Of a stretch of 64,000 nucleotides of DNA, positions 23,214-64,000 are shown one piece after another. Every line of letters begins with the position of its first letter. Positions within the stretch are counted from its first letter, which is position 1. The DNA comes from Nostoc linckia z4. Its GTDB lineage: Bacteria > Cyanobacteriota > Cyanobacteriia > Cyanobacteriales > Nostocaceae. Below the pieces are notes generated by a model that saw nothing but the letters and a program-made list of their open reading frames with translations, did not search any database and was not told the origin of the DNA. The stretch lies in the NCBI RefSeq assembly GCF_002608075.1, contig NZ_LAHA01000007.1, positions 77,263 to 141,262 of the forward strand. Reading direction: 5' to 3'. The translations under genes were made by a program, and so were the position numbers.

Positions 23214-24635
23214 TTACTTAATACTTAACAGCAGGAAGGCAAATAAGGCTCCTCCACAGCTACCTATCGTCCACCCAGCATTGAATTCGCTCCAAGATTT
23301 AGCTGTTTTCAAATTTTGGGGTAGTTCTCCTTGGGCAGGTTTGCGCCCTTGGAACGATACACTGCCATACAGCCACAAGCAAATCGATAAAATCAACAAC
23401 AAACCGATGGTGGCAATTAGTCCTGCTTGGTTTGCTAACTCTGTATCCCTTAGTGGCCCTAGTTTGACAAACGGCCCAATCAAGAAATAACCGTGGGCCA
23501 TACCAATTTCCAGCCCCCTGGAAAAGGAAGATAATCCTTGGCGGTAAATAGGAAGATTTGCTAACAAGTCCAGCGTGATATCAGAAGTATTCACTGGCGT
23601 ATGTAAATTTCCGATTTCCGGTATCCCCGCAGCATTGACAACTCCCTGCTGAAAATCAAGTCCGGCGGCTGTGACGCGTACTCTCAATGCGTGCCAAATA
23701 TGACCAGCTAAAAATACAATTGCCAGAGCAAAGTGACTCGTTGCTAGCCAAGTGCGAACAGTAATTATTCCTGATGCTGTGGTACTCAATCCCAACGGCC
23801 CATAGAAAACTGTGGGATAAACGGTATCATTGACGGTGACAAAGTATGCTGCCAACAAACCCATGTAAGCCAAAGCACCCAGACTATAGGATAGGTAAGC
23901 CTCACCAGACCAAAACAACACTTTTTTCGCCCAAGGAAAAGGCTTGGTGAAAATGTGCCAAAATCCTCCAGCAATGCAAAGTATTCCTACCCAAATATGT
24001 CCGCCGATGACATCTTCTAGGTTGTTAACTGCTGCTATTCCTTGTTGGCCAAAAGCACCAAACAGATAGCCAAAAATCCGACTTGGATTAAGAGTTGGTT
24101 CAGTAATGACGCGTACAGATGCCACTGCTGGATCGTAAAGACCGCCCCAAAATAAAGCTTTTGCCACCAATAACCAAGCCCCTAACCCCAACAACAGTAA
24201 ATGAATACCGATGATGGTGGTCATCTTGTCTTCATCTTTCCAGTCGTAGCCAAAGAAGCCAAAAAACGAGTTATTTTCAGGTAACACTTCGGGGCCTAAA
24301 ACGGCATGATAAATCCCGCCTGCACCAAGTACAGCAGAACTAATTAGATGTAAAACACCGATGGCAAAATACGGATAAGTATCAATAATTTGGCCGCCAT
24401 CACCAACACCAAATCCCAAAGTTGCTAGATGTGGCAGTAAGATTAACCCCTGCTCATACATCGGTCGGCCAGAGTCGTATTTGGTGAGTTCAAACAAAGT
24501 CATGGCTCCGGCCCACAGAGCAATCAACCCAGCATGAGCAACATGAGCGCCTAAAAGTTTACCGGAGAGGTTAATAAATCGGGCATTACCAGCCCACCAA
24601 CTGGATTGTTGGGGGTTTATGGTTGCAGTTGTCAT
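23214..24635 (-). CDS. CP43'-PsaL fusion protein (IsiA-PsaL type)
   Basis: Residues 1-330 form a complete six-helix CP43'/IsiA antenna domain ([48 protein letters not shown]). Residues 340-473 are a PsaL-like domain: [61 protein letters not shown] and a last hydrophobic helix. PsaL is the subunit at the centre of the photosystem I trimer, so the fusion could tether an antenna to the trimer interface. Such fusions are known in heterocystous cyanobacteria. It starts 2 bases after the preceding CP43' stop, so the two are co-translated. Confidence 0.92.
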
Positions 24636-24637
24636 GG

Positions 24638-25669
24638 TTAAATTGCCTCCCCACGAGTTGCACGTATGACTCTCCAGGTACGGAAGTCAAATCCAGCAGC
24701 ACGTAGGGCGTGCCAGAGATGTCCTTGAAGAAAGAAAAAGCCCAGCCAGAAATGAGCATTGGCCAGCCAAACACGAGAGGATAGTAAATTTCCACTCTGG
24801 AAATAGGGAAAGCGGTCAAACCCAATACTCAAGGCTGGGCCATAAAATTCGGGTGGATAAGCTAGGGTGTTGACACAGACAAAATAAGCAGCAATAAAAC
24901 CCATGAGAGCTAAAGCACCCAAACTGTAAGAAAGATATGCTTCTCCTGACCAGATAAAAAGCTGCTTTGCCCAGCCGAAAGGTTGAGTAGTAATGTGCCA
25001 GATACCACCGGTAATGCAGAGAATACCCACCCAAATATGACCGCCTACCAAGTCTTCTAGATTATTCACTCCAGCAATCCAGTGCTGGCCACCACCACCG
25101 AACAAATAGCCAAAAATAACTACGGAGTTCAAAGTAGGGTTAGAAACTATTCGCACTTCACCCACCGTAGCATCGTACAAGCCGCCAAAGAACATAGCTT
25201 TGGCAACTAGTAAGCCTGCTCCCACACCGAGCAACACTAGGTGAATACCTAAAATCGTAGTCATTTTATTCGCATCTTCCCAGCGATAGCCAAAGAAGGA
25301 AAATCTTTGTTCTAAAATGGCGGGGCCGCGTAGGGCATGGAAAATGCCGCCAAGTCCCAGAAAGGCAGAGCTAATTAAGTGCAATGCTCCAATGACGAAG
25401 TAGGGATAGGTATCTACTATTTGTCCGCCACTGCCTACACCCCAACCGAGGGTTGCCAGATGCGGCAATAGAATTAAGCCCTGTTCGTACATTGGTTGCG
25501 ATCGATGGAAGTGAGCAAGTTCAAATAGGGTGGTTGCACCAGCCCAGAGAACAATTAAGCCCGCATGAGCAACGTGAGCGCCCAAAAGTCGTCCTGAGAG
25601 GTTAGTTAACCGAGCATTCCCCGCCCACCAGGGAATTGACTCTGGTTTTTGAACAGCCACGTTTGTCAT
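24638..25669 (-). CDS. CP43'-type chlorophyll-binding protein (IsiA/Pcb paralogue), first gene of the isi operon
   Basis: It has six hydrophobic helices with chlorophyll-ligand His residues ([61 protein letters not shown]). The frame is open to 25696, but the start is set at 25669 ([15 protein letters not shown]) because AGGAG lies 8 bases upstream of that ATG. It resembles the PsaL-fusion antenna domain more than isiA (similar IHL and DFR motifs), suggesting tandem duplication. It is the first gene of a likely operon with the PsaL fusion, isiB and isiC. Confidence 0.9.
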
Positions 25670-37557: not shown

Positions 37558-38919
37558 TTAAGTAATATGTCTTTTAACCTGATAAGCTTCTACATATTTT
37601 GCTGGAGAATAGGCAAACTCGCCTTTCCACTGCTCAATTAAGCGTTCCGCCAAGGTACGACCAGACACAGCAATTTCTTCTATGGAGTCGAGGTACTTTA
37701 AAACGATGGGTTGTTCAAGGCCTGCATTAATCCGTGCTTGCAGCCCTTCTTTTGCCAGCTTGAGCATTTCTAAGGCCAGTTCTCTGACTGAATCTTTACC
37801 ATATTTCGCCTGCAATCCCTTGTAGCAGACTTCTGTTTGTGCTTTTTGATAATCCTCTATCCTTCGATTTTGAAAGAGTTTCCACAAAGATTCAAGAGAT
37901 GGTTGATGATAAACTAATCCAGTCCAGAAAGCGCACGCACCACTAACCTGTTCCAAAGCCAGTCCATCCATTGAACGAATTTCGATTGTATTTCGCAACC
38001 GAATATCGGTGTAAATCGATGAAAAGTGACTGCGCCAGTTATCAAATGTGGGTCTGGTTCCATTGTCAAAGCCATGTTCTAGTACAGATGCAAAAGTCCG
38101 TCCGTGCATGGGTTGACAGATACCATTAACAACAGCGACTATCATGGGAACTTGAATTGCCCAATCAATATAATCATCAAAAGTCATAGAACCACTAAGG
38201 GCTGGGGTAAGACAACCACAACGTGCTGGATCCCATCTCAGCCAGTACCTTAACCGATGGGATAATGTACCATCAGCTACTCCCTCTTCTATGGGAGAGT
38301 TAGCGAACAGCGCATTAGAGACGGGTACGGCTGCTACTAGCGATCGCATCTTGCGATTCATATCTGCTTCAGAAACATAATCAAAGGTTAGTTGGGTTGA
38401 TAGAGATCGTGCCATGATGCACTCTCCCAAAGAATCAATTCCCAATTTATTGAGATAATCTAAAATCAATCCATAACGATGGTTCGGTGACCAGTTAGTA
38501 TCTTTGAGCTTGTCAAAGGGCAACATACTGCCAGCAATCAGGACAGCACCTAACTCTTGCGCTACCTCTGCCATCTTGAATATTTCTTGCTGTGTAGTCT
38601 GCACAAGGGTTGCAATATCTCCAATTGGAGGAGATGAATACTCCATCGTCCCCGCAGGTTCTAAAGAAATTTTAGTGCCGTCAGCTCTTCGCAGACCGTA
38701 AATATGACCTGCATCGACAATCGGTGTCCACTCATCGGTTTTGAGCAATGCTTCCAAGATGGCGGATATTCCCGTAGTCCCCTCATAAGGAATAGAAAGC
38801 CCTGTGTGAGGATTGACTACTCCTAATTCCACCTCGATCCCGATTTTCTCGGTTACTGTTTTGTCTTTAGAAAAGAATGTTAATAGATCTTGACGAGTTA
38901 ATAATTGTTCATTGTTCAT
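37558..38919 (-). CDS. Glutamate-cysteine ligase, GCS2/EgtA-like
   Basis: The 453-residue protein matches the GCS2-type carboxylate-amine ligase family: KIGIEVELGVVNP near residue 25 (acidic ATP-metal residues), SLEPAGTMEYSSPP near 80, NHRYGLI near 145, ARSLSTQLTFDY near 170, and TIEIRSMDG near 310. Family members join glutamate through its gamma-carboxyl to cysteine (glutathione, ergothioneine pathways), and some to other amines. The start next to MNNEQLL is likely. It overlaps the EamA exporter gene by 4 bases (ATGA type), so the two work together and the product may be exported. Confidence 0.82.
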   Translation of the reverse strand: MNNEQLLTRQDLLTFFSKDKTVTEKIGIEVELGVVNPHTGLSIPYEGTTGISAILEALLKTDEWTPIVDAGHIYGLRRADGTKISLEPAGTMEYSSPPIGDIATLVQTTQQEIFKMAEVAQELGAVLIAGSMLPFDKLKDTNWSPNHRYGLILDYLNKLGIDSLGECIMARSLSTQLTFDYVSEADMNRKMRSLVAAVPVSNALFANSPIEEGVADGTLSHRLRYWLRWDPARCGCLTPALSGSMTFDDYIDWAIQVPMIVAVVNGICQPMHGRTFASVLEHGFDNGTRPTFDNWRSHFSSIYTDIRLRNTIEIRSMDGLALEQVSGACAFWTGLVYHQPSLESLWKLFQNRRIEDYQKAQTEVCYKGLQAKYGKDSVRELALEMLKLAKEGLQARINAGLEQPIVLKYLDSIEEIAVSGRTLAERLIEQWKGEFAYSPAKYVEAYQVKRHIT

Positions 38920-39923
38920 TGTTCATTGATGTTTGCTTCGAGTATGGGACGATTTACTACTTCTATAACTGTTGATTTTTCAACTTTTTCACCGGATTGC
39001 GCTAGGTAAATCCCCAACAAAACTACAAAAAAAGCGAACCAGTTGAGAAGACTTAAGTGTTCGCCAAAGATTACCCATCCCATAACAGCGGTGAAGATCG
39101 GTTCCAGAAGTAGGAATAGAGAAATGAAACTAGAAGAAAACTTTTTAATCTGATGGGCGAGAATCACTGAAGCGATCGCTTGGCAGAAAACAGCCAGGGA
39201 AACCACTGTCAACCAGCCTTGTATGGAAGAGGGAAACATTTTATCCTCGGTGAGCAATACCAAGGGAAATGTCCAACAACTCCTGATTAAGCAAGACCAT
39301 AAGAGTATACCACTTGCTGGAAACTTAGCTCTGAGTTGTTCTGTTGTCAGCATATTTGTGGCAAAGAACACAGCAGAAAGTAACGCCCAACCATCACCAA
39401 TGAGATTATCAGTACTCAATTGCCAATCTTCAAAACCAATGGCGATCGCTCCACCTATGGCTAAAGCCAAACCTATCAGAAATCGCTTATCAAAATAATG
39501 ACCCAATACTAGCCATCCCCCAAAGGCTACGAACACTGGGGTAAAATTATGTAGTAGATTCGCATTAGCGACACCAGTTTGAGTCAAAGACCACACCCAG
39601 GCAAGTTGGCACAATTCCGTTGCAGTGGCAGCTATAAATAAAAGTTTTAAATCGCTGAGGGTGTATTTTTCCTGCGGTACAACTGATTTTTTAGACACTC
39701 TCCATCGCAAAACTTCAATGCTTCTCCAAAATCCAAGGACGATAGTAGCTATCCAGAAGCGATTAAATACCGTAGCATTGGGCCCTAAATCTCGTTCGCT
39801 CAATTTGATCAAGATTGCCGCCAAGGAAAACATAAATACTGCTATGAATACTAAAATACCTTCTATCAGAGTTGCACTTTGCTGCTGTGTTTCTGATTCA
39901 GCCGACTCCAATAAATGATTCAT
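38916..39923 (-). CDS. EamA/DMT-family transporter
   Basis: The protein has ten hydrophobic helices in two EamA repeats (FSLAAILIKLSERDLGP, NLLHNFTPVFVAFGGWLVLG in the first; LLEPIFTAVMGWVIFGEHL in the second). This family exports amino acids, purines and related metabolites. The frame opens upstream at 39977. I chose Met at 39923 (MNHLLESAESE), which directly precedes a hydrophilic N-terminal tail as in relatives. Its 3' end overlaps the GCS2 ligase start by 4 bases. Confidence 0.85.
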   Translation of the reverse strand: MNHLLESAESETQQQSATLIEGILVFIAVFMFSLAAILIKLSERDLGPNATVFNRFWIATIVLGFWRSIEVLRWRVSKKSVVPQEKYTLSDLKLLFIAATATELCQLAWVWSLTQTGVANANLLHNFTPVFVAFGGWLVLGHYFDKRFLIGLALAIGGAIAIGFEDWQLSTDNLIGDGWALLSAVFFATNMLTTEQLRAKFPASGILLWSCLIRSCWTFPLVLLTEDKMFPSSIQGWLTVVSLAVFCQAIASVILAHQIKKFSSSFISLFLLLEPIFTAVMGWVIFGEHLSLLNWFAFFVVLLGIYLAQSGEKVEKSTVIEVVNRPILEANINEQ

Positions 39924-40556
39924 AATGATTTTTCTATGAACTACGTATACCAAATCGATGTTTGTAACTGGTAGCAAGTTTATATTACTCTTATATCTTT
40001 CTCATAGAAGAATGCAATCGGTTTAGTTAAGCCCACGTAGTGTAAGTATAGCTCTGGCTTTGTTTGTTTGTTCCATAGTTTTTACCCACTGACTAGCTAT
40101 TGCCATTGCAATGGGTTGCTTTGATTTCCTAAGCGAACGTGAGTTCGATGAACCTCTCCCAAACGGCTTTAACATCCTGAGTTGGGTACGAAAAATTAGG
40201 TTTTTTAAACCTTTCCCTGAAGCGGGGAAAGGTTTGGAGAGGGATTCTTTGGAATCTAGGCGATCGTACAAAGCATAGTTCATCTGTTCCCAGATACCTC
40301 CTCCTTGCCAGCTACAACAATAACTGTAAAAAGGCGAACTAAGCTGAAAATTGCCTGCTAGAATATTGCATTAATATTTTCTTTTCAGAGAAAATAGCTG
40401 TATTAAGCTAATCGTCATTCATTTTTCCAGACTGATTCGCTTGTAGTAAGGGCTTTAGCCGTGGTTTTATGCAACTTAAATGCTGATTAGTTTATAGACT
40501 TCGAGCATGTTCGTAGTACAAAATTTCCACCTAATTTTATTAGTGGAACTAAATAA

Positions 40557-41177: not shown

Positions 41178-41265
41178 GAATTTTCAAGCAAGACTAAAAT
41201 AACTAGACATTAAAGTCAGTTTTTAGATACTTGTGAACATTGACAAAAATTAAAGGAGTCAACTC

Positions 41266-41316
41266 ATGAAGAATCGCAAGAAAAATGGACAATATACTGG
41301 CTCTTTACTCGGTTAA
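41266..41316 (+). CDS. Mini-peptide MKNRKKNGQYTGSLLG, copy 1
   Basis: This is a 16-codon ORF with TAA stop. The product has a basic N-terminal half (K-N-R-K-K) and an uncharged C-terminal half (N-G-Q-Y-T-G-S-L-L-G) with no Cys. It has no signal peptide and no membrane helix. AAAGGAG lies 7 bases before the ATG. Codons used are AAT for Asn3, AAG for Lys5, TAT, TTA and CTC. I do not recognise the peptide. The two-part composition fits a leader/core precursor or a signalling peptide, but neither is shown. First of seven copies, about 1.2 kb before the M29-like gene. Confidence 0.85.
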   Translation: MKNRKKNGQYTGSLLG

Positions 41317-41389
41317 TCAACTAGATTAACTTGACGAAAGTCAGTTTTATTTACTTGTGAACATTGACAAAAATTAAAGGAGTCAACTC

Positions 41390-41440
41390 ATGAAGAACCG
41401 CAAAAAAAATGGACAATATACTGGCTCTTTACTCGGTTAA
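41390..41440 (+). CDS. Mini-peptide MKNRKKNGQYTGSLLG, copy 2
   Basis: The peptide is identical to copy 1. DNA differs only by AAC (Asn3) and AAA (Lys5), both silent. It has the same ribosome site and the same following hairpin. Confidence 0.85.
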   Translation: MKNRKKNGQYTGSLLG

Positions 41441-41514
41441 TCAACTAGATTAACTTTACAGAAGTCAGTTTTTAGATACTTGTGAACATTGACAAAAATT
41501 AAAGGAGTCAACTC

Positions 41515-41565
41515 ATGAAGAACCGCAAAAAAAATGGACAATACACTGGCTCTTTACTCGGTTAA
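41515..41565 (+). CDS. Mini-peptide MKNRKKNGQYTGSLLG, copy 3
   Basis: The peptide is identical. DNA has AAC, AAA and, uniquely, TAC for Tyr10, all silent. The linker before it is the GTTTTTAGATAC type. Confidence 0.85.
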   Translation: MKNRKKNGQYTGSLLG

Positions 41566-41638
41566 TCAACTAGATTAACTTGACGAAAGTCAGTTTTATT
41601 TACTTGTGAACATTGACAAAAATTAAAGGAGTCAACTC

Positions 41639-41689
41639 ATGAAGAACCGCAAGAAAAATGGACAATATACTGGCTCTTTGCTAGGTTAA
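41639..41689 (+). CDS. Mini-peptide MKNRKKNGQYTGSLLG, copy 4
   Basis: The peptide is identical. The two Leu codons change to TTG CTA (silent). The hairpin loop after the stop is AACCA instead of AACTA; the stem is unchanged. Confidence 0.85.
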   Translation: MKNRKKNGQYTGSLLG

Positions 41690-41762
41690 TCAACCAGATT
41701 AACTTGACGAAAGTCAGTTTTATTTACTTGTGAACATTGACAAAAATTAAAGGAGTCAACTC

Positions 41763-41813
41763 ATGAAGAACCGCAAGAAAAATGGACAATATACTGGCTC
41801 TTTGCTAGGTTAA
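41763..41813 (+). CDS. Mini-peptide MKNRKKNGQYTGSLLG, copy 5
   Basis: Peptide and DNA are identical to copy 4 over the ORF, which suggests recent duplication of this unit. Confidence 0.85.
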   Translation: MKNRKKNGQYTGSLLG

Positions 41814-41886
41814 TCAACCAGATTAACTTGACGTAAGTCAGTTTTATTTACTTGTGAACATTGACAAAAATTAAAGGAGTCAACTC

Positions 41887-41937
41887 ATGAAGAATCGCAA
41901 GAAAAATGGACAATATACTGGCTCTTTGCTAGGTTAA
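41887..41937 (+). CDS. Mini-peptide MKNRKKNGQYTGSLLG, copy 6
   Basis: The peptide is identical. It combines AAT for Asn3 (as in copy 1) with TTG CTA (as in copies 4 and 5), a recombinant pattern that suggests gene conversion between units. Confidence 0.85.
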   Translation: MKNRKKNGQYTGSLLG

Positions 41938-42011
41938 TCAACCAGATTAACTTTACAAAAGTCAGTTTTTAGATACTTGTGAACATTGACAAAAATTAAA
42001 GGAGTCAACTC

Positions 42012-42062
42012 ATGAAGAACCGCAAGAAAAATGGACAATATACTGGCTCTTTACTCGGTTAA
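42012..42062 (+). CDS. Mini-peptide MKNRKKNGQYTGSLLG, copy 7
   Basis: The peptide is identical. The codon pattern is AAC, AAG, TAT, TTA, CTC. After the stop the sequence turns to TTAATCAAGTAAAG, the GTTAATC/GATTAAC hairpin is lost and the array ends. Confidence 0.85.
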   Translation: MKNRKKNGQYTGSLLG

Positions 42063-42527
42063 TTAATCAAGTAAAGATAGCTTACAATGATGTAATTATG
42101 TTCTTCTAAGTGCAACAAAAGAGCATACTACCTTGTAATCTACTCTAATTATTTGGCTTAGAAAAACAATAAAGCATCTATGCTATGTAGGTTCTAGATA
42201 ATTTAACTAGAGCAAAGTATTCCAGCATATCTTACTTATACCAATTTTCTGTGAAGGTGAACATTATTGTTACCCTTCCTAACCTCCAGCCAGTGGTGAT
42301 AACAGACGTAACCTCTGCAACACACTGGCTTTTAAAAGCATAGCGGAAATACCGCAGACGGTGGGTTTTCTTATCATGTGTCTTCATCTAAAAAGGGTAT
42401 ATTGTATTTATATATATGCTGGAATCAATCTAGAAAAATTGTTTTTTCTTGTTACAAAGGCTTTGATTTTTTAATAGTTTCATAATTGCACATCAGTAAT
42501 CATTCCTTAAAATATGCAGGTGATATT
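42063..42527. other. Region between the array and the M29-like genes, with RNA-like inverted repeats
   Basis: No ORF is seen. At 42288-42330 AGCCAGTG pairs with CACTGGCT around a 27-base loop, followed by TTTT. At 42343-42355 GCGG-AAATA-CCGC forms a second hairpin. TCTGC in the first loop can pair with GCAGA after the second hairpin. This may be a transcription terminator/attenuator or a structured leader between array and biosynthetic genes. Confidence 0.5.
42288..42360 (+). ncRNA. Candidate structured RNA or attenuator
   Basis: The two stems described for this interval (8 bp: AGCCAGTG/CACTGGCT; 4 bp: GCGG/CCGC) and a possible cross-pairing (TCTGC with GCAGA) lie within 75 bases of higher GC content in an AT-rich surrounding. 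No known riboswitch consensus was recognised. Confidence 0.35.
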
Positions 42528-43649
42528 ATGAAGACAATACCTATCTATCCCAGTCTTTTGCGTCAACTTGGTGACCCCGAAGAAAGTACTTTTTACTTTG
42601 TCACTAATTCTCATCTGCTCGATGTTTTTAAGATAGAGCCAGACACAGACTATAAAGATTTCAAAATGCTGAGTTACGATCCAGGTGATAGCTTCATAAA
42701 AATCTTAAAAGAACAAATTAATGAACCTGCTCATATTCTTGTCATTACACCAGATTGTTTATTTGAATCTGTACACCCAGATGATTTAGGCCAGAATCGT
42801 AAACTTTTAATTTTTGCTTGTAATTCTGCTCCAACTTCAATAGAAGCTGTTGAACACTTTTTAAGATGTGGCGAAAAAACAGATCCTGAAGAACAAGAAA
42901 AGATTTCAAACCAATTTTTTGAACGAGGTGAAACTGCTGATATTTTAAAGCTGGTTGACGAAGAATATGGAACAGTAGCTGAATTTAATCATTTAAGCGA
43001 TAACTATGGATGGCATGAGCAATTAGGTATGTTAGGTTGGGGAGAACAGCAAATCTTTCCATCAGGAGAAATAGCTTGTTTTCTTGTACCATTAAAAGGT
43101 ATAGATAAGCTTCCCGAACTTCAATTTGAATTAAATGGAGAAATACCTCTAAAAGGTTTTCCGGTAGTTCACTCAGGGCCTCCATCTTTCTTGCGAGAAG
43201 ACCAACAAAGGATTTATGAAAAACTTTCTACCTTCAAGGATCATGCGGTCATTGCAACTATCAAAGATGGCATAGTAGTTGGAATGAAAGCAACCCATCC
43301 CTCTGTCCAACCAGCTTTAGAAATTCTCGAAGCAATGTTCATGGTTGATTCCAGATTTAGACAGATATTCGAGATTGGGTTTGCTATCAATCCATATATA
43401 GAGATATTACCTCAAAACTCAGCAATGAATGAGGTTTATGGTGGCGAAAAGGGCTGCGTTCATTTTGGTTTTGGAATGCTACCTTACACTCAATATCATT
43501 TGGATCTCATCTGTCCCAATATCAAAGTCCTGGGTAATAATAATGAATTGCTCCTGGGTGGAAATTGGAGCGGTAATTACAAAAACAAACAAAAGCCAAC
43601 AAGGAAAATTGTGCCTCAAAGGGTAGCGCAATGTCCCTGTATTGGATGA
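42528..43649 (+). CDS. M29-aminopeptidase-like protein, first copy
   Basis: The frame opens at TTG 42486, but ATG 42528 (MKTIPIYPSLLRQLG) has AGG 7 bases upstream and matches the paralogue's start. The N-terminal 170 residues are unfamiliar. From about residue 175 the motifs parallel the metal core of M29 aminopeptidases (AmpS/aminopeptidase T): FPSGEI (like PxGEVFT), FEIGFAINP (like ELGxGxNP), NEVYGGEKGCVHFGFG (Glu and His five apart) and YHLDLICP (H-x-D). The first M29 domain is missing or very divergent. A roughly 30-residue basic tail ending CPCIG is absent from the paralogue. The role is inferred: cutting or holding the upstream peptides. Confidence 0.7.
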   Translation: MKTIPIYPSLLRQLGDPEESTFYFVTNSHLLDVFKIEPDTDYKDFKMLSYDPGDSFIKILKEQINEPAHILVITPDCLFESVHPDDLGQNRKLLIFACNSAPTSIEAVEHFLRCGEKTDPEEQEKISNQFFERGETADILKLVDEEYGTVAEFNHLSDNYGWHEQLGMLGWGEQQIFPSGEIACFLVPLKGIDKLPELQFELNGEIPLKGFPVVHSGPPSFLREDQQRIYEKLSTFKDHAVIATIKDGIVVGMKATHPSVQPALEILEAMFMVDSRFRQIFEIGFAINPYIEILPQNSAMNEVYGGEKGCVHFGFGMLPYTQYHLDLICPNIKVLGNNNELLLGGNWSGNYKNKQKPTRKIVPQRVAQCPCIG

Positions 43650-43820: not shown

Positions 43821-44861
43821 ATGTCAAAGATTGCTATACGTCCAGGGCGTTTGCAGCAATTTGGTAACACAGAAAAAAACACTTCATTTTGTGTTGTCAC
43901 CAACTCTAGCTTGTTAGACAAGATAAAAATTTCTCTAGAAAAAGACTACAAAGACTACAAATTAATCTCCTATGATGCAGGAGATGATTTTTCAAAAATA
44001 CTAAACGAGCAAATACCTGAACCAGCTCATATTCTTGTCATTGCGCCAAATTGTTATTTCCGTTCACCAGAGCCAGAACATCTTGGCCCTCATAGAAAGC
44101 TCTGTATCATGGCTTGCAATTCTACTCCTACATCAGTGGAAGCAATTGAGCATTTCCTCAGATGTGGTGAAAACACAGATCCTTACGAACAAGAAGAGAT
44201 TGCTGAGCAATTCTTTACTAAGGGTGAAAACGCAGGTTACTTCAAGTTTGTAGACGAAGAATATCAAACTGTTGCTGTATTCGAGCATTTAGATGATAGG
44301 TTACAGTGGCACGAGCAAGTAGGACGACTGGAATGGGGAGAACAGCAGTTATTTCCCTCAGGAGAAATCAGCGTGCTACCTGTAGATGTTTTTGCTCTTA
44401 ACCTCAATGTCAAACTTAATATCAACGGAAAATTAGCATTTAAAGGGATTCCCGTACTGCATTCAGGTACGCCTTCATTTCTACCAGAGGATCAAGAACG
44501 AATTTTTCAGGCTTTGTATACAATGCGGGATCATGCTGCGATCGCAACTTTGCAGGATGGCATAATCGTTCACATAGAAGCATCTAGTCCATCTGTCCAG
44601 CCTGCTGTAGATATTTTGCAAGCCATGTATCAAGTAGATTCTAGATACAGAATGATTATCGAGATTGGTTTTGCAGTGAATCACCATTTAAAGCTATTTC
44701 CTGGAAATTCAGCGATGAATGAAGTCTACGCTAATACTAATGGAACTGTCCATTTTGGGCTGGGACTAATTCCTCACACCCAATATCATTTAGACATCAT
44801 CTGTCCATCCATAAAAGTATTTTCTGAAAATGATGAATTGATATTTGGAGGCATACGATAA
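43821..44861 (+). CDS. M29-aminopeptidase-like protein, second copy
   Basis: The 346-residue protein is clearly paralogous to the preceding gene over its whole length (for example HRKLCIMACNSTPTSVEAIE against the first copy's ACNSAPTSIEAVEHF). It keeps FPSGEI, IIEIGFAVN, GTVHFGLG and YHLDIICP. The Glu five residues before the His (GEKGCVH in copy one) is missing: this copy reads NTNGTVH. One metal ligand may therefore be lost, which suggests the two differ in role or form a heteromer. AAGAGGA lies upstream of the ATG. Confidence 0.7.
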   Translation: MSKIAIRPGRLQQFGNTEKNTSFCVVTNSSLLDKIKISLEKDYKDYKLISYDAGDDFSKILNEQIPEPAHILVIAPNCYFRSPEPEHLGPHRKLCIMACNSTPTSVEAIEHFLRCGENTDPYEQEEIAEQFFTKGENAGYFKFVDEEYQTVAVFEHLDDRLQWHEQVGRLEWGEQQLFPSGEISVLPVDVFALNLNVKLNINGKLAFKGIPVLHSGTPSFLPEDQERIFQALYTMRDHAAIATLQDGIIVHIEASSPSVQPAVDILQAMYQVDSRYRMIIEIGFAVNHHLKLFPGNSAMNEVYANTNGTVHFGLGLIPHTQYHLDIICPSIKVFSENDELIFGGIR

Positions 44862-44973: not shown

Positions 44974-45732
44974 GTGAAGCTTACTAACTCTTGGATTGTT
45001 CGACCTAAATTAAAACATCAATCTCCCTTCCTGCGTCTATTTTGTATTCCTTATGCTGGTGGTAGTGCTTCCATATTTCACCATTGGTCAAATTATTTAC
45101 CAGCAGATATCGAAATTTGCTCGATACAACTTCCTGGTAGAGAAAAGCGCCTGAAGGAGCCACCATTTACAGAATTATTACCTTTAATTGAAAGTCTGGC
45201 TCCTGTCTTACTTCCTTATCTAGATATACCCTTTGCCATCTTCGGCCACAGTACAGGAGCTATAATCAGCTTTGAATTAGTCCGTCAACTGCGTCACCAA
45301 AAAGCACCCAACCCCGTTCATCTGTTTGTTTCTGCTCGTGGCGCTCCCCAATTTCCTTTAAAGGAACCACCTATTCATCAACTACCTGAAGCTGCTTTTA
45401 TAGAAAAGTTGCGTCGTTATCAAGGTACGCCAGAGGCAATACTGAAAAATCCAGAGCTGATGGAAATCTTTTTGCCTACCTTACGAGCCGACTTAGCTAT
45501 TAATGAAACCTATATATACACCAGTGAACCCCCGCTTGAGTGCCCGATATCTGCGTTCGGAGGTTTGCAGGATATGGAGGTGAATCGTGATGATCTCGCT
45601 GCTTGGCGTCACCAAACTAATAGTACTTTCACTCTGCGTATGTTTCCTGGGAATCACTTCTTTCTTCATAGCGAGCATCATGCACTGCTGTCATGTATAT
45701 CCCAAGACTTAAATTCAGTTTTATCTATTTAA
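44974..45732 (+). CDS. Type II thioesterase (GrsT-like)
   Basis: The 252-residue alpha/beta-hydrolase starts at GTG 44974 (MKLTNSWIVRPKLK). Family marks are RLFCIPYAGGSASIFHHW near residue 21, QLPGREKRLKEPPF near 55, the nucleophile FGHSTGAIISFEL near 90 (usually GHSMG), the Asp region GGLQDMEV and the His in GNHFFLH. Such enzymes remove or release acyl groups from carrier proteins in NRPS systems; in the SyrB/Cma systems related enzymes move the halogenated residue. It sits 28 bases before the A-T didomain gene. No classical Shine-Dalgarno is obvious before the GTG. Confidence 0.88.
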   Translation: MKLTNSWIVRPKLKHQSPFLRLFCIPYAGGSASIFHHWSNYLPADIEICSIQLPGREKRLKEPPFTELLPLIESLAPVLLPYLDIPFAIFGHSTGAIISFELVRQLRHQKAPNPVHLFVSARGAPQFPLKEPPIHQLPEAAFIEKLRRYQGTPEAILKNPELMEIFLPTLRADLAINETYIYTSEPPLECPISAFGGLQDMEVNRDDLAAWRHQTNSTFTLRMFPGNHFFLHSEHHALLSCISQDLNSVLSI

Positions 45733-45760: not shown

Positions 45761-47599
45761 ATGTCCAAATTACAATCTCTGACGGAAGCAGAACGGCATC
45801 AATTATTGGTTGAGTGGAATGATACCAAAGCAGATTATCCCCAAGAGAAATGTATTCATCAGTTGTTCGAGGAACAGGTAGAGCGGACTCCCAATGCATT
45901 GGCTACAGTCTTTAAAGACCAACATTTGACTTATCAACAGTTAAATGAAAGAGCAAATCAGTTAGCAAATTACCTGCAAAAACTGGGTGTGGGGCCAGAA
46001 GTCTTAGTAGGAATTTGTGTCGATCGCTCTTTAGAAACCATCGTGGGAGTTCTTGGTATTCTCAAGGCTGGAGGTGCTTACGTCCCTCTAGATCCAGAAT
46101 ATCCACAGGAACGTTTAGCTTTTATGCTAGAGGATAGTCAAGCATCGGTGTTGTTGACTCAGCAGCGCTTAATCGAACATCTTCCCCGACACCAAGCAAA
46201 AGTTATCTGTCTGGATACCGACTGGCCAGCCATTGCTACAGAGAGTAAAACCCTAGTCTTGAGTTCAGTACGCTCAGACAATCTGGTTTATGCAATGTAC
46301 ACCTCAGGTTCCACAGGAAAACCGAAGGGTGTTCTTATTCAGCACCAAGGGTTGTGTAGTGTTATCCTGACATCTATTAAAGCTTTCGGAATCAACGATA
46401 GTGACAGGGTTTTACAGTTTGCCACCTTCAGCTTTGATGTTTCTGTATGGGAAATTTTTTCTGCCTTGGTTAGCGGAGCCACATTATACTTAATCGATCG
46501 CGAAACAATGCTCTCAGATCGAGAGTTGCTCGCGCTCATCCGTAACCAGCAAATGACTACAATCTTCCTTTTACCTTCAGTCCTCAAACGACTTCCTTCA
46601 CAAAACTTACCAGCTTTACGCAGGGTAATTACAGGTGGAGAAGGGTTTTCTGAGGACTTTATCACGCGTTGGGCTAAAGGAAGGCAGTTCTTTTATGTCT
46701 ATGGCCCCACAGAAGCAACTATCCTTCAATCTTTTATTGACTGTAGTGAAGTCTGTCCGCAAAAGGCGCTACTCGGTCGCCCAATTGCCAATTTTCAATA
46801 CTATGTACTAGATTCCGAGCTAAAACCTGTGCCCATTGGAGTGATTGGAGAACTCCATATTGGTGGTGTCGGTTTAGCCAGAGGCTATTTGAATCAACCC
46901 GAACTCACCGAACAAAAGTTTATTGCTAATCCTTTTAGCCACGAAGAGGGAGCGCGTCTTTACAAAACGGGTGATTTGGTTCGCTATCAAAGCGATGGTA
47001 ACTTAGAATTTTTGGGTCGCAGCGATCATCAGCTAAAAATCCGAGGCTTTCGTATAGAACTGGGAGAAATTGAGGTAGCCTTGGCTCAACATCCAGAAGT
47101 ACGGGAAGCTGTGCTTATGGGTCGGGAAGATATACCAGGTGACAAACGCTTAGTGGCTTACGTAGTTCCTGTGAGAAAGCAAGCTGTAAATGTAAATCAG
47201 CTACAAGACTTTTTGCGCCAAAAATTGCCGGAATATATGATTCCATCTGCTTTTGTCATGTTGGATGAGTTACCGTTAATGCCCAATCAAAAGGTGAATC
47301 GTCAAGCCCTTCCCGCACCTACTCAAGAACGACCTGAACTTGAAGAACCCTTTGTGGCTCCTCGTACCCCGATTGAAGAATTACTAGCTGAAATTTTTGG
47401 GGAAATTTTAAATCTGGACAAGGTTGGTGTTTGCGATGACTTTTTTGAATTGGGAGGACATTCTTTATTAGCTTCTCAAGCGATCGCTCGGATATGCGAA
47501 GCTTTTGAGATGGACATTCCCCAGCGAACTTTGTTTGAAACCCCTACTGTTGCTGACCTGGCTGCGGTAATTACAAAAAAACAAGCTGGCAAAAATTGA
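45761..47599 (+). CDS. Free-standing NRPS adenylation-carrier didomain (A-T)
   Basis: Residues 1-45 are the usual linker (LTEAERHQLLVEWNDT). The adenylation domain has core motifs LKAGGAYVPLD, YTSGSTGKPKG, FSFDVSVWE, VYGPTEAT, GELHIGGVGLARGY, YKTGDLVR, GRSDHQLKIRGFRIELGEIE and NQKVNRQALP. A carrier domain follows with DDFFELGGHSLLASQ (Ser carries phosphopantetheine). There is no condensation or built-in thioesterase domain. Aligning by eye with GrsA, pocket positions read D-V-W-L-I-G-V-I-L; the D-x-W start is shared with Ser- and Thr-type codes, but I cannot name the substrate safely. The architecture equals SyrB1 and CmaA, which load the substrate for a halogenase. Confidence 0.92.
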   Translation: MSKLQSLTEAERHQLLVEWNDTKADYPQEKCIHQLFEEQVERTPNALATVFKDQHLTYQQLNERANQLANYLQKLGVGPEVLVGICVDRSLETIVGVLGILKAGGAYVPLDPEYPQERLAFMLEDSQASVLLTQQRLIEHLPRHQAKVICLDTDWPAIATESKTLVLSSVRSDNLVYAMYTSGSTGKPKGVLIQHQGLCSVILTSIKAFGINDSDRVLQFATFSFDVSVWEIFSALVSGATLYLIDRETMLSDRELLALIRNQQMTTIFLLPSVLKRLPSQNLPALRRVITGGEGFSEDFITRWAKGRQFFYVYGPTEATILQSFIDCSEVCPQKALLGRPIANFQYYVLDSELKPVPIGVIGELHIGGVGLARGYLNQPELTEQKFIANPFSHEEGARLYKTGDLVRYQSDGNLEFLGRSDHQLKIRGFRIELGEIEVALAQHPEVREAVLMGREDIPGDKRLVAYVVPVRKQAVNVNQLQDFLRQKLPEYMIPSAFVMLDELPLMPNQKVNRQALPAPTQERPELEEPFVAPRTPIEELLAEIFGEILNLDKVGVCDDFFELGGHSLLASQAIARICEAFEMDIPQRTLFETPTVADLAAVITKKQAGKN

Positions 47600-47636: not shown

Positions 47637-48542
47637 ATGGTGACAACACAAATTAGTTCTTTCTACTTAACAGACGCAGAAAAAACTTTTTTTAATGAAA
47701 ACGGCTATGTCGGCCCCTTCAAAGTCTACGAACCTGAAGAGATGAAAGAAATCTGGAAGAGAGTGAGAGTCGATCTTCTCGATACCAGTCGTGCGCCATT
47801 CACAAACAGTAAACTCAATTATGACAGACATTTAGATGTCTCAGATTTAAGCAAGCTAATTATCAAACCGGAAATTGTCCATCGACTCCAAAGCATTCTC
47901 GGACAAAATGTTCTGTGCTGGCGATCGGAATTTTTTCAAAAGAATAGTGGCGACGGAGGAACTGGTTGGCATCAAGTTGAACTCTATGGAGTGGGTGAGA
48001 AAAATCAAGCTGAATTAATGCCAATTGAAAGATATGAAAATAGACCCATTGAACTAGCAGCTTGGGTTGCAATGACTGATGTTCCAAGGGAAATGGGCCC
48101 TCTTAAATTCATCCCAGGTTCGCATAAACAGTGGTATTTTAATGAGCTTGGTGACATAACCCATCATCCTGAAAACATTAACAAGGATGGATGGTTTTAT
48201 GGATACAATTACAATGAATTAAGGCTCGATCCCAACTGGGAACCAGACAAGTCAGAAACTGCTGTAGTCGAGATGAAAGCAGGAGAAGTTGTCTTATTTA
48301 CATCTAAATGCGTACATGGATCGTTGCCAAATAAGGCAAGAAAAAGTCGAGTAGGTTACGCCATTCGCTATGTTCCCACAAATGTAATAGTTTACCCAAA
48401 TATCACCACCTTTACCGAATTTGGCGAAACTTTAAGCACTGAGAAAACAGGTTGTGTTTTGGTTGCAGGAGAAGACAAGTACAAACACAACAATATCAAG
48501 ACAGAAAATGCTCTTGGTGAATCATTTGTTCCCCTACCATAA
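47637..48542 (+). CDS. SyrB2-family non-haem Fe(II)/2-oxoglutarate halogenase homologue with H-Q-V in the triad
   Basis: The 301-residue protein resembles the threonyl chlorinase SyrB2 from end to end: NGYVGPFKVYEPEEMKEIWK, NYDRHLD, SILGQNVLCWRSEFF, LKFIPGS, YGYNYNELRLDPNWEPD, MKAGEVVLF and RYVPTNVIVYPN. The first iron His is His112 (GWHQVEL) and the second His227 (KCVHGSL). Arg244 fits the 2-oxoglutarate anchor. The third triad position, Asp in hydroxylases and Ala or Gly in halogenases, is Val114 (codon 47976-47978). A carboxylate ligand is thus absent, as in halogenases, but Val is bulkier than any I know there. Glu115 next to it is an alternative ligand. The substrate would sit on the A-T protein's carrier. 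Confidence 0.9.
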   Translation: MVTTQISSFYLTDAEKTFFNENGYVGPFKVYEPEEMKEIWKRVRVDLLDTSRAPFTNSKLNYDRHLDVSDLSKLIIKPEIVHRLQSILGQNVLCWRSEFFQKNSGDGGTGWHQVELYGVGEKNQAELMPIERYENRPIELAAWVAMTDVPREMGPLKFIPGSHKQWYFNELGDITHHPENINKDGWFYGYNYNELRLDPNWEPDKSETAVVEMKAGEVVLFTSKCVHGSLPNKARKSRVGYAIRYVPTNVIVYPNITTFTEFGETLSTEKTGCVLVAGEDKYKHNNIKTENALGESFVPLP

Positions 48543-48789: not shown

Positions 48790-49974
48790 ATGCATTCTAT
48801 CCAAGAAATTTCAAGTCTGTGCAAGAAGTCACTATTTCAATTGGATGATGTTCGCTATCTTAATTGTGCCTATATGTCCCCACTATCAAAAAGTGTGGAA
48901 GCAGCAGGGATAGTAGGTATGCAAAGAAAAAGAATTCCTACTGCTCTCAAAAGAAGCGACTTTTATGAGGATAGCGAAAAAATCCGTCAGCTTTTCGCTC
49001 AAATGATTTTTGCTCAAGATCCATATCAAATAGCGATCGTTCCTTCACTTTCCTATGGAATGGCAATTATCGCAAAAAATACAAATTTCCAACGGGGTCA
49101 AAACATTGTTGTCACATCTGAGGAATTTCCCTCTAATGTTTACACTTGGCTGAGAGTATGTCAGGAACACGATTTAACATTAAAGATAGTTGAACCTGAC
49201 AATCAACTCAATAATTGTGGTCATCAATGGAATGAAAAAATTTTAGAAGCTATCGATGGAGATACTGCTCTTGTAACACTGGGACATGTCCATTGGACAA
49301 ATGGAACACTTTTTAATCTTAAAGAAATTGGTCAACGTGCTCGTGAGTGTGGAGCAGCTCTAATTATAGACGGTGCCCAATCTGTAGGAGCATTGCCGTT
49401 CAATGTATCAGAAATTCAACCAGATGCCCTTTTCTGTCCAGCCTACAAGTGGCTGATGGGCCCCTATGGAAATTGCCTTGGTTACTTTGGTTCTCGCTAT
49501 TTAAATGGAATTCCACTAGAAGAAAATTGGCTCAATCGTTATCCCTATGATAGTGATAGCTTTCAGGATCTAGTTATCTACAGAGATGAATATCGTCCTA
49601 AAGCAATTCGCTACGATGTCGGTGAAATGAGCAACTTTATTTTGTTACCGATGATCGTCAGAGCGCTTGAACAATTAGTCGAGTGGGGTATTGACAATAT
49701 TCAAACTTATTGCCGCAACTTAGTCAATCACAAATTTATTAACAAAATCGGCGAACTCGGATTTTTAGTAGCTGAAGAAGATAGTAGAGCAGCTCATCTA
49801 GTTGGTATTAGTTTGCCAGATAATATAGATTTGGAAAAGTTGCGGAGTCTTTTAATTAAAAATAAAATTTTAGTTTCTATACGCGGTCAGTCAATACGAC
49901 TTGCGCCAAACATTTATAATGACGAAGATGACATGAATGCTTTTGTGGATGCATTGCGTCAGTTTCGTAATTAA
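48790..49974 (+). CDS. Class V aminotransferase-fold PLP enzyme (cysteine-desulfurase/IPN-epimerase-like)
   Basis: The 394-residue protein is a fold-type I PLP enzyme of class V. Visible are VRYLNCAYMSPLS near residue 20, VPSLSYGMAI near 85, VTSEEFPSNVYTW near 110, the PLP-binding Asp and Gln in IDGAQSVGALPFN near 195, and the Schiff-base Lys in CPAYKWLMGPYG near 219. Members desulfurate, epimerise, or carry out beta/gamma eliminations. No active-site Cys loop of an IscS/SufS desulfurase is obvious. Behind an A-T/halogenase cassette, elimination or transamination of the modified amino acid is possible. The gene lies 247 bases after the halogenase homologue. Confidence 0.85.
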   Translation: MHSIQEISSLCKKSLFQLDDVRYLNCAYMSPLSKSVEAAGIVGMQRKRIPTALKRSDFYEDSEKIRQLFAQMIFAQDPYQIAIVPSLSYGMAIIAKNTNFQRGQNIVVTSEEFPSNVYTWLRVCQEHDLTLKIVEPDNQLNNCGHQWNEKILEAIDGDTALVTLGHVHWTNGTLFNLKEIGQRARECGAALIIDGAQSVGALPFNVSEIQPDALFCPAYKWLMGPYGNCLGYFGSRYLNGIPLEENWLNRYPYDSDSFQDLVIYRDEYRPKAIRYDVGEMSNFILLPMIVRALEQLVEWGIDNIQTYCRNLVNHKFINKIGELGFLVAEEDSRAAHLVGISLPDNIDLEKLRSLLIKNKILVSIRGQSIRLAPNIYNDEDDMNAFVDALRQFRN

Positions 49975-61426: not shown

Positions 61427-64000
61427 ATGACTGCATCATTTACAAATGCCACTAACTTTTTAGCTGGGATAACTGCTACTTCAGCAGACATGGAAGGCGA
61501 TCGCGCAGTTGACTTGGTGGCAGGTAATTATATACAGCCTGCTAATCAACTGGTTTTTATTGATTCACAGCTAGAAAACTACCAAAATCTGGTATTAGGT
61601 GTTTTGCCTAATCTGACTGTTGTTGTCCTAGATGCCAACCAGGATGGTATTGAGCAAATTAGCCAAGTATTGGCATTGCATCAACAAGTTAGCAGCCTGC
61701 ACATTGTTTCCCACGGCGCACCAGGGCGGCTTTATTTGGGAAACAGTCAACTGAGTTATGAAACGCTTCATCGCTATAGTTGGCAACTCATGGGTTGGGC
61801 TAATGCTTTGACTGCTGACGCACAACTGCTTGTGTATGGTTGTGAAGTTGCTCAAACACAGCAAGGCATGGCATTTGTACAGCGATTGAGCGAATTGACC
61901 GGTGCAGCGGTAGCAGCCTCAAATCACTTAATAGGAAGTCACACATTAGGCGGAAACTGGAAACTGAATATTTGTACCGGGGCAATTACTTCTGGTTTGG
62001 CGTTCCAAGAACAAGTAATGACAGCCTACTCCTCAGTACTAGGAAAAGTAATTCTTGACACCAGTTTCAACACCACTGGTAAAGTTACTACCGATTTTAA
62101 CGGCAATGATGAAGCTAGTTACAGCATCGCTGTCCAAGATGACGGCAAAATTCTGGTGGCCGGATATAGCAATAACGGTACTGATAAGGACTTTGCCATC
62201 GTCCGTTATAACAGCAATGGTACTCTCGACACCACCTTCAACACTACTGGTAAAGTTATTACTGACTTGAACGGCAATGATGATGGTAGCTATAGCATCA
62301 CCGTTCAAGATGACGGCAAAATTCTGGTGGCCGGATATAGCAATAACGGCACTGATGATGACTTTGCCATCGTCCGTTACAACAGCGATGGCACTCTCGA
62401 CACCACCTTCAACACCACTGGTATAGTTACCACTGACTTTAACGGCAACAATGAGGGCGGTAACAGCATTGCTATTCAATCTGACGGCAAGATTCTGGTG
62501 GCCGGATATAGCAATAACGGCAGTGATGATGACTTTGCCATCGTCCGTTACAACAGCGATGGCACTCTCGACACCACCTTTAACACCACTGGTATAGTTA
62601 CCACCGACTTTAACGGCACTAATGAGGCTGGCAATAGCGTTGCTATTCAATCTGACGGCAAGATTTTAGTGGCCGGATATAGCAATAACGGCACTAATAA
62701 TGACTTTGCCATTGTTCGTTATAACAGCGATGGCACTCTCGACACCACCTTCAACACTACTGGTAAAGTGACTACCGACTTTAACGGTAAAGATGAAGGT
62801 GGCTACAGCATCACCATCCAAGATGACGGCAAGATTCTGGTGGTGGGAGTTAGTAATAACGGCACTGATGATGACTTTGCCATTGCCCGTTATAACAGCG
62901 ATGGTAGTCTCGACACCACCTTCAACAGTACTGGTAAAGTTACTACCGATTTTAACGCCAGCAATGAGACTGCCAACAGCATCACCGTCCAAGATAACGG
63001 CAAGATTCTGGTGGCTGGATATAGCAATAACGGCAGTAATGATGACTTTGCTTTCGCCCGTTATAACAGCGATGGCACTCTCGACACCACCTTCAATACT
63101 ACTGGTAAAGTTACTACTGACTTTAACGGCAATGATGAAGGTGGTAATAGCATTACTATCCAAGATGATGGCAAAATTCTGGTGGCGGGAGTTACCAATA
63201 ACGATACTGATTATGACTTTGCGATTGCCCGTTATTCGGTGAATCAATCTCCAGAGTTAGCGAATGAAATTCAGGATCGAGAAGCCACCGAAGATAGTGT
63301 TTTTAACTTCATTATCCCAAATGACACCTTCAGCGATGCAGATGCCGGAGATATCCTGACTTACACTGCAACTCTGGAAAACGATCAACTACTGCCCACT
63401 TGGTTGAACTTTAACCCTGGTACTCTCACCTTCAGCGGCACTCCCACAAGTCAGGATATTGGTAGTCTTAACATCAAAGTTACTGCTAAAGATATTGCTG
63501 GAGATGAAGTCAGTGATGTGTTTACACTTGCAGTTGCCGAGAAGAATTCTGCGCCGACAAATTTAATATTTAGCATTGTCAGCGACGATAATGATGATGA
63601 CGATGACGAACAGAAAATTATCGGTTTTTTCACTACTATTGATTCAAATCAAAATGATAAACACACCTATAGCTTAGTGACTGGTAATGGTGATAGCGAT
63701 AATGAAGCATTTATCATTGAGGGTAATAGCCTCAAAATTAAATCTGATATCACCAAATCTAGTTATAAAATCCGCGTCCGCACTACTGACGTTGGCGGGC
63801 TTTATTTTGATAAGGAATTGGATGTTAATGCTAGCAGTTTTGGCTCTACAAATATCGAGATAACAACTATTTTCCAATTGGTTAATATTACTCAGAATAT
63901 CTTTACTGTGAAAAGTAAAGATAAGGGCGGCAAAGGAAAACTTTCCATTAAAATTAAAGCCAACAAATCCAAAGAAGTAAATGAACTGTGTGTATTTAAT
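61427..64000 (+). CDS. DUF4347 / delta-60-repeat surface protein (cut by window end)
   Basis: Starting at ATG 61427 the frame stays open for 858 codons to the window end. Residues 20-200 are a DUF4347 domain (LVFIDSQLENYQNLV, LHIVSHGAPGRLYLG, LVYGCEVAQTQQG), the usual N-terminus of huge cyanobacterial surface proteins. From 62054 to 63250 there are seven delta-60 repeats of exactly 57 residues (LDTTFN, DDGKILVAGYSNNGT, DFAIVRYNSDG). Cadherin/He_PIG-like domains follow (ANEIQDREATEDSVF, TWLNFNPGTLTFSGTP), with an Asp-rich DDNDDDDDEQ and YSLVTGNGDSDNEAF segment that could bind calcium. No signal peptide is seen at the N-terminus, typical of type I secreted proteins whose signal is C-terminal. 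Confidence 0.9.
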   Translation, partial: MTASFTNATNFLAGITATSADMEGDRAVDLVAGNYIQPANQLVFIDSQLENYQNLVLGVLPNLTVVVLDANQDGIEQISQVLALHQQVSSLHIVSHGAPGRLYLGNSQLSYETLHRYSWQLMGWANALTADAQLLVYGCEVAQTQQGMAFVQRLSELTGAAVAASNHLIGSHTLGGNWKLNICTGAITSGLAFQEQVMTAYSSVLGKVILDTSFNTTGKVTTDFNGNDEASYSIAVQDDGKILVAGYSNNGTDKDFAIVRYNSNGTLDTTFNTTGKVITDLNGNDDGSYSITVQDDGKILVAGYSNNGTDDDFAIVRYNSDGTLDTTFNTTGIVTTDFNGNNEGGNSIAIQSDGKILVAGYSNNGSDDDFAIVRYNSDGTLDTTFNTTGIVTTDFNGTNEAGNSVAIQSDGKILVAGYSNNGTNNDFAIVRYNSDGTLDTTFNTTGKVTTDFNGKDEGGYSITIQDDGKILVVGVSNNGTDDDFAIARYNSDGSLDTTFNSTGKVTTDFNASNETANSITVQDNGKILVAGYSNNGSNDDFAFARYNSDGTLDTTFNTTGKVTTDFNGNDEGGNSITIQDDGKILVAGVTNNDTDYDFAIARYSVNQSPELANEIQDREATEDSVFNFIIPNDTFSDADAGDILTYTATLENDQLLPTWLNFNPGTLTFSGTPTSQDIGSLNIKVTAKDIAGDEVSDVFTLAVAEKNSAPTNLIFSIVSDDNDDDDDEQKIIGFFTTIDSNQNDKHTYSLVTGNGDSDNEAFIIEGNSLKIKSDITKSSYKIRVRTTDVGGLYFDKELDVNASSFGSTNIEITTIFQLVNITQNIFTVKSKDKGGKGKLSIKIKANKSKEVNELCVFN
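62054..63250 (+). repeat. Seven direct repeats of 171 bp (57-residue delta-60 units)
   Basis: Unit starts (CTCGACACC or CTTGACACC) are at 62054, 62225, 62396, 62567, 62738, 62909 and 63080, exactly 171 bases apart with no insertion or deletion. DNA identity is high, showing recent expansion or conversion. Confidence 0.9.

Follow-up and report, generated by a model that had tools for sequence, protein, structure and literature searches.

In crocagin biosynthesis (Chondromyces crocatus), CgnB and CgnE bind the 21-residue basic precursor CgnA and act jointly with the dioxygenase CgnC to remodel the residues at its C-terminus; the dizinc site of CgnB is no longer present in CgnE (PMC10070186). 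The two-copy genomes described in that paper carry a CgnC homologue and Tyr-Trp precursors. Ribosomal peptides are also used for amino-acid-derived products in the pearlin pathways (3-thiaglutamate, ammosamide), which need a LanB-like peptide aminoacyl-tRNA ligase. Here, we analyzed a 64,000-nucleotide stretch of the Nostoc linckia z4 genome (contig NZ_LAHA01000007.1, forward-strand positions 77,263 to 141,262; hereafter the window), which holds a tandem array of seven open reading frames (ORFs) for one 16-residue peptide and, behind it, genes for two CgnB/CgnE-like proteins, ORF1 and ORF2 (Table 1). With a probability of about 70%, we read the array as the multi-copy precursor for these two proteins, in a pathway of the ribosomally synthesized and post-translationally modified peptide (RiPP) type that resembles crocagin biosynthesis and is distinct from it.

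The array (TRF array 41212-42063) consists of seven head-to-tail units of 124-125 bp, each with an AAAGGAG site and, after 7 intervening bases, an ORF of 17 codons (counting the stop) that encodes MKNRKKNGQYTGSLLG; the ORF starts are spaced by 124, 125, 124, 124, 124 and 125 bp. The motif TTAAAGGAGTCAACTCATG lies exactly 5′ of all seven ORFs (7 matches vs. 0 in 100 shuffles), which confirms a first-pass annotation of the window that had described tandem identical 16-residue ORFs, each with its own AAAGGAG. The columns that vary among the window ORFs are the third positions of codons 3, 5, 10, 14 and 15 only (Asn3, Lys5, Tyr10, Leu14 and Leu15), and all changes are silent, as that annotation had also stated. 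A coding minisatellite, which it had discounted, is ruled out, because start codon, stop codon and ribosome-binding site are all repeated in every unit. In its own genome (8,995,472 bases) the repeat unit is present at this single place.

A search of 217 Nostocaceae genomes for the 125-bp unit located it in three, with 7 copies in the window genome, 5 in Nostoc sp. ATCC 43529 and 2 in Mastigocoleus testarum BC008, and all fourteen ORFs encode one identical peptide. The window ORFs and the five ORFs of the close relative Nostoc sp. ATCC 43529 differ by silent changes only. Mastigocoleus has two identical ORFs, which depart from the commonest window ORF by 6 changes, every one of them silent; when 6 changes were placed at random, the peptide survived in 0.02% of 20,000 simulations in one run and in 0.005% in another (P ~1e-4). 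The same peptide is encoded on a contig binned as Heimdallarchaeota with 12 differences, all silent, and 0 of 20,000 simulations kept it. Since the array, its relative, Mastigocoleus and the Heimdallarchaeota-binned contig differ by silent changes only, these codon patterns support the view, put forward in the first-pass annotation, that selection acts on the peptide sequence itself.

That annotation had named ORFs with frameshifts or amino-acid changes in related arrays as the mark of a repeated small RNA. An ungapped search revealed no broken extra copies within 1.5 kb of the window array or of 15 tandem loci from the scan described below. A small RNA or other non-coding repeat, with the ORF incidental, would suit the strong DNA identity between units and the GTTAATC...GATTAAC inverted repeat that lies 3′ of 6 of the 7 ORFs, overlaps the stop codon and is lost after the last copy. 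RNA folding of one unit, however, is barely beyond that of shuffles (z −1.70), Rfam gave no match within the array, and divergence across genera and phyla is silent only. On the last two grounds we rejected this explanation, to which we give next to no chance. An excess of promoters was not found (12 sites vs. a mean of 8.1, sd 3.0), and no + strand promoter per unit was detected inside the array, bar one hexamer pair spanning its left edge.

A scan of named genomes with an ORF1/ORF2 alignment gave 70 loci (cited by L numbers). A common C-terminus was already visible in a motif-free listing of short ORFs, which were selected solely by Shine-Dalgarno-like site, basic residues and length. A first motif pattern matched an ORF in 64 of the 70 loci and in 0 of 700 shuffled loci; a looser pattern, which also admits the Fischerella version, found 65, the locus gained being L027. 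In the five misses (L023, L033, L083, L085 and L086), the CgnB/E-like gene runs off the contig or lies within ~65 bases of its end. The hosts include Cyanobacteriota, Actinomycetota, Pseudomonadota, Chloroflexota and Acidobacteriota, plus the Heimdallarchaeota-binned contig. Linkage to the M29-like genes, which the first-pass annotation had proposed for cyanobacteria, is real and reaches far beyond them. A short conserved precursor ORF with silent-only divergence, linked to putative modifying proteins in 65 of the 70 loci, is an arrangement expected of a RiPP pathway.

Two genomes outside the 70 loci also fit. One (G070, one contig of 7.0 Mb) is a near relative of the Fischerella locus. In the other, Paraburkholderia largidicola, a gene for a CPC-tailed CgnB-like protein comes after the peptide, and then come reading frames resembling AzlC and AzlD, which share 44% and 34% identity with their counterparts in Acinetobacter calcoaceticus (L032). 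A distant CgnB/E-like branch (~30% identity) occurs on the Streptomyces plasmids L110 and L111 (2 of 8 records examined), with a 46- or 40-residue ORF ending SKYGKYDRLEG directly 5′ of the CgnB/E-like gene. These plasmids also encode an ACT-domain protein and a GntD-like hydroxylase, and non-ribosomal peptide synthetase (NRPS) genes lie 3′ of the CgnB/E-like gene.

The C-termini of 96 matching ORFs are YLGTLLG (79), YTGSLLG (13), YTGNLIG (2), YTGSLIG (1) and YLGSLLG (1). Invariance at Y-7, G-5 and L-3, which both patterns fix, and at G-1, which the looser one also fixes, is by construction. At the open positions, the 24 distinct 16-mers have only L or T at −6, T, S or N at −4 and L or I at −2; N occupies position −10 in 24/24, where N, D or T was allowed, and K or R position −11 in 23/24. 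The last residue was Gly in every match of the first scan, although Ala or Ser was allowed.

Five longer versions of the peptide had no NCBIfam match at E up to 10. In the open-access literature, no mention of YLGTLLG, YTGSLLG or PF26231 was found, supplements such as that of crocagin lying outside the search. In the same literature, GTLLG with RiPP and DUF2817 with gene cluster returned only unrelated matches, phrases joining AzlC and RiPP were unmatched, and matches to the KNRKKN fragment included pig virus papers. An earlier listing of such peptides, for example in the crocagin supplement, may exist.

The adjacent Leu-Leu codons, and the position of the peptide ahead of a pair of branched-chain amino-acid exporter genes in some loci, would also be expected of attenuators, leader peptides that regulate the genes downstream by sensing leucine or ribosome stalling. 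We judge this very unlikely: non-leucine residues are conserved as well (−10 and −11, above), the ORF of actinobacterial loci sits behind the first CgnB/E-like gene and not ahead of it, seven tandem leaders make little sense, and only one terminator-like site, a weak one, was detected. It is also quite unlikely that the peptide is a secreted signal or antimicrobial, which the CgnB/E-like proteins, with their M29 aminopeptidase-like fold, would trim or destroy. Signals usually diverge between lineages, and this peptide does not; the 16-mer, inspected by eye, has no apparent export signal; and NRPS, halogenase, ligase and exporter genes accompany the CgnB/E-like pair. In the crocagin study, moreover, CgnB and CgnE were without aminopeptidase activity (PMC10070186).

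The predicted folds of ORF1 and ORF2 match those of CgnB and CgnE. ORF1 holds all six positions taken as CgnB-type metal ligands (E181, E282, E302, H312, H324 and D326), equated with CgnB Glu161, Glu252, Glu274, His280, His291 and Asp293 from their order and invariance, and ORF2 is likewise intact (EEEHHD). Among 121 CgnB/E-like rows (119 ORFs from 67 loci and the two window proteins), EEEHHD is intact in 74, both window copies among them, and 65 of the 67 loci have one or more intact rows; the degenerate second copies found in actinobacteria lack at least two of the six positions. A CgnB/E-like protein with a C-terminal CxC tail occurs in 61 of the 67 loci, and in the window the tail is found on ORF1 and not on ORF2. 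The ORF1 C-terminus (~43600-43649) is a conserved basic tail ending in CxC, where model confidence is low. Pfam assigned no label to the CgnB/E-like proteins, a chance match to a viral family (E 0.075) falling far under the cut-off; a precomputed PF26231 tag is attached to 10 of the 120 homologues listed, and a CgnE/B-domain name to one. These proteins are sporadic, occurring in 9 of the 217 family genomes and in 2 of 388 genomes drawn from the order.

The locus shares with crocagin a very short Lys/Arg-rich precursor, with a presumed C-terminal working part, and paired proteins of the CgnB/CgnE fold (predicted in the window) encoded nearby. The differences are that the window precursor, which lies within 1.5 kb and ends YTGSLLG, has an SLLG C-terminus in place of a Tyr-Trp core; that identical genes stand in tandem, whereas crocagin has one precursor gene; and that both window paralogues hold EEEHHD, whereas the second crocagin copy has a broken metal site. 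Pfam and NCBIfam scans of 8 window proteins gave no evident CgnC, and NRPS, halogenase and pyridoxal-phosphate (PLP) enzyme partners are found instead; the sole Fe/2-oxoglutarate enzyme of this set is of the chlorinating type, no CgnC sequence having been compared. Because the window has neither the Tyr-Trp core nor the broken second metal site, the pathway is not crocagin, and its two-copy locus falls outside the description in PMC10070186. The first-pass claim that no described system is built in this way was nevertheless too strong: crocagin has a 21-residue basic precursor and partners of the same fold, though one gene and a different core.

Other described systems are less similar. The pearlins share the use of a ribosomal peptide, but no peptide aminoacyl-tRNA ligase was seen among the 8 scanned proteins, and the window peptide has 16 residues and is multi-copy. 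The microcin C7-type gene mccA stands alone and encodes a heptapeptide on which the products of neighbouring genes act, as would be the case for the window ORFs, but it is a single gene with other enzymes, and we know of no kinship between the two peptides.

The proteins encoded downstream of ORF2 include a stand-alone adenylation-carrier (A-PCP) protein, a chlorinating enzyme and a thioesterase, side by side. This set resembles SyrB2/CytC3 carrier-tethered chlorination, exemplified by coronamic acid and barbamide-type modules, but it lies inside a peptide/CgnB-like locus. The halogenase matches CytC3 (6.4e-69) and SyrB2 (1.1e-67), and its HQV aligns with the HQA of CytC3, an HxA-type motif without the Asp/Glu of the HxD/E motif of hydroxylases. 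At E up to 1e-60, it is found in 5 of the 217 family genomes; since only two of these carry CgnB/E-like genes, the halogenase is not specific to the peptide/CgnB-like system. The active-site cysteine of SufS is located in the C-terminal loop, and the corresponding RGxSIRxxPNIYN loop of the PLP enzyme has no invariant Cys (7 sequences), which sets it apart from SufS cysteine desulfurases. A role of this enzyme as sulfur donor for the CPC tail of ORF1 was dropped on that account.

On the other side of the array, the glutamate-cysteine-ligase-like (GCS2) gene is the second GCS2 copy of the genome and not the housekeeping gshA. At E up to 1e-80, the ligase is present in 4 of the 217 family genomes, 3 of which have CgnB/E-like genes (two being close relatives), and a relative with 38% identity lies directly behind the CgnB-like gene in Calothrix L035. 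Elsewhere in the window, about seven copies of a 171-bp tandem repeat occupy 62053-63235, and the IsrR antisense RNA family has four + strand matches within ~6 kb (19278-19455, 20414-20591, 24065-24242 and 25105-25282), presumably opposite several isiA-like genes, an unusual multi-copy arrangement.

Table 1. Features of the peptide array and its surroundings (window positions)
Feature	Position	Strand	Remarks
Tandem array	41213..42062	+	seven units, each with AAAGGAG site and 16-codon ORF
Peptide ORF 1	41266..41316	+	MKNRKKNGQYTGSLLG
Peptide ORF 2	41390..41440	+	same peptide
Peptide ORF 3	41515..41565	+	same peptide
Peptide ORF 4	41639..41689	+	same peptide
Peptide ORF 5	41763..41813	+	same peptide
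Peptide ORF 6	41887..41937	+	same peptide
Peptide ORF 7	42012..42062	+	same peptide; without inverted repeat after stop
ORF1, CgnB/CgnE-like protein	42528..43649	+	373 aa; C-terminal CPC tail
ORF2, second CgnB/CgnE-like protein	43821..44861	+	346 aa; without CPC tail
Type II-like thioesterase	44974..45732	+	PF00975; likely cluster member
Stand-alone NRPS adenylation-carrier (A-PCP) protein	45761..47599	+	
Fe/2-oxoglutarate chlorinating enzyme, SyrB2/CytC3 type	47637..48542	+	TIGR01762, 326.8 bits (cut-off 226.3)
PLP class V enzyme, SufS-like fold	48790..49974	+	K220 invariant
Glutamate-cysteine-ligase-like enzyme (GCS2)	37558..38919	-	tentative cluster member
EamA-type transporter	38916..39977	-	overlaps GCS2-like gene; tentative cluster member

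When the 70 loci were searched with 25 accessory queries, the most frequent partners were a haem-oxygenase-like enzyme (36 loci; Pfam match of 25.2 bits, under the 28.9 cut-off), an unnamed partner (36), DUF2817 (33) and an ATP-grasp protein (19), whose L-amino-acid-ligase domain falls just under its cut-off. Other matches were to MFS (14, and 3 of a second MFS type), SDR (14), S9 peptidase (9), AzlC (9), the PLP enzyme (6), AzlD (5) and the halogenase (2). In 7 of its 9 loci AzlC lies directly behind the CgnB-like gene on the same strand, L069 and L077 (24-25%, other strand) being excluded. In A. calcoaceticus L032, the tandem peptide genes precede a CgnB-like gene, AzlC and AzlD, whose reading frames overlap. 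On a Pyrinomonadaceae contig, the end of a CgnB-like gene is accompanied by what is probably the remnant of a PLP enzyme (34% over 47 residues) and by genes for a ValRS-like protein, a carrier-like protein and a halogenase that shares 48% identity with that of the window; here, unlike in SyrB2/CytC3 chlorination, the ValRS-like protein of this metagenome-assembled contig takes the place of the A domain.

The ValRS-like proteins of L063 (4213-6159) and L086 (489-2321), of 648 and 610 aa, are shorter than the 860-863-position models and score below the cut-offs; the gene follows the PLP gene in L063 and precedes the carrier-like and halogenase genes in L086. On a Cylindrospermum plasmid (L018, 4547-8449), a 1300-aa ORF near the peptide/CgnB system combines a condensation domain, class I tRNA-synthetase parts and a carrier domain; we take its synthetase parts to be in swapped order, with the KMSKS-type part before the HIGH-type part.

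The enzyme set follows the peptide subtype. The PLP enzyme is present in 5/10 loci with T-type and 0/55 with L-type peptides, and the haem-oxygenase-like enzyme in 0/10 and 35/55, respectively; AzlC and S9 each occur in 0/10 T-type and 9/55 L-type loci (both P 0.33).

Peptide genes are present in 2 to 5 copies in 15 of the 70 loci, and within each locus the copies are identical over the last 16 residues. In a tree of 66 intact CgnB/E-like proteins, multi-copy rows fall in the Nostoc/Mastigocoleus line, Calothrix, Acinetobacter and one Streptomyces group with a Streptosporangium record. Its well-supported branches require four or more switches between one copy and several, some of which could be losses; the Calothrix and Fischerella rows were flagged as long branches. 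On this tree, the peptide gene has therefore been amplified or reduced repeatedly. Repeated copy-number change, with identical tandem copies recurring in unrelated lineages, fits the high peptide dosage suggested by the first-pass annotation, and we infer such a role.

It bears also on whether the peptide is a reusable carrier, with an amino acid joined to its C-terminal glycine, altered and cut off, as in pearlin pathways. Such logic has been published; the C-terminus is strongly conserved over its full length, with Gly as the last residue in every match of the permissive scan, and amino-acid-activating or -ligating enzymes and amino-acid exporters lie nearby. A recycled carrier, however, needs no repeated amplification, no PEARL-like family was detected among the 8 scanned window proteins, and no single one of the 25 accessory queries had a match in every architecture, Acinetobacter-type loci matching AzlC and AzlD only. 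We consider a carrier possible but unlikely.

We favor a precursor that is consumed. Translated from the array, the peptide would be bound by ORF1/ORF2 through its basic N-terminal half, MKNRKKN, acting as leader, and these proteins would act on its conserved C-terminus, YTGSLLG, as the part to be modified and released. Each product molecule would use up one precursor molecule, and this would account for the recurrent amplification of identical copies. Amino-acid exporters, ligases and activating enzymes in related loci point to a small, amino-acid-like product, a proposal drawn from gene company. In the window it may be passed to the PLP enzyme, A-PCP, halogenase and thioesterase, and elsewhere to ligases, to ValRS-like activating enzymes or directly to an amino-acid exporter.

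Several observations weigh against this proposal. (i) Searches of the PDB with profiles A1 and A2, at E up to 1 and 10, turned up no CgnB chain, so the kinship with CgnB is one of predicted fold. (ii) Both window copies keep the metal-site positions, which one crocagin copy has lost. (iii) RiPP cores usually vary between clusters, and this C-terminus barely does (79/96 YLGTLLG), which would also suit a carrier or ligand. (iv) A dedicated protease is not evident among the 8 scanned window proteins. (v) The PLP enzyme and the halogenase are present in few loci, and 3 of the 5 halogenase-bearing family genomes are without CgnB/E-like genes, so these two are less firmly linked to the peptide than the CgnB/E-like genes are. 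(vi) The association of subtype with enzyme set is partly one of shared descent.

More tentatively, and with the odds against the whole of it, the loci may represent a ribosomal route, in at least five bacterial phyla, to one conserved amino-acid-like block. In such a route YxGxLLG would be consumed by CgnB-like metalloproteins, the precursor amplified for dose, and the block diversified per locus by carrier chlorination, by ValRS-like activation replacing adenylation domains or by ligation, or exported unchanged by AzlCD.

If so, crocagin-type biochemistry would reach far past pyrroloindolines, and ribosomal and non-ribosomal logic would be joined at one locus. A tiny system of a peptide, one metalloprotein and two exporter subunits would then be at hand for a direct test of the CgnB-fold reaction. 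The array would also be a clear-cut example of gene amplification serving peptide dose. A 16-residue ORF is shorter than ordinary gene callers retain, so a precursor family spread over several phyla could go unseen. The peptide is likely the raw material of an undescribed family of small natural products.
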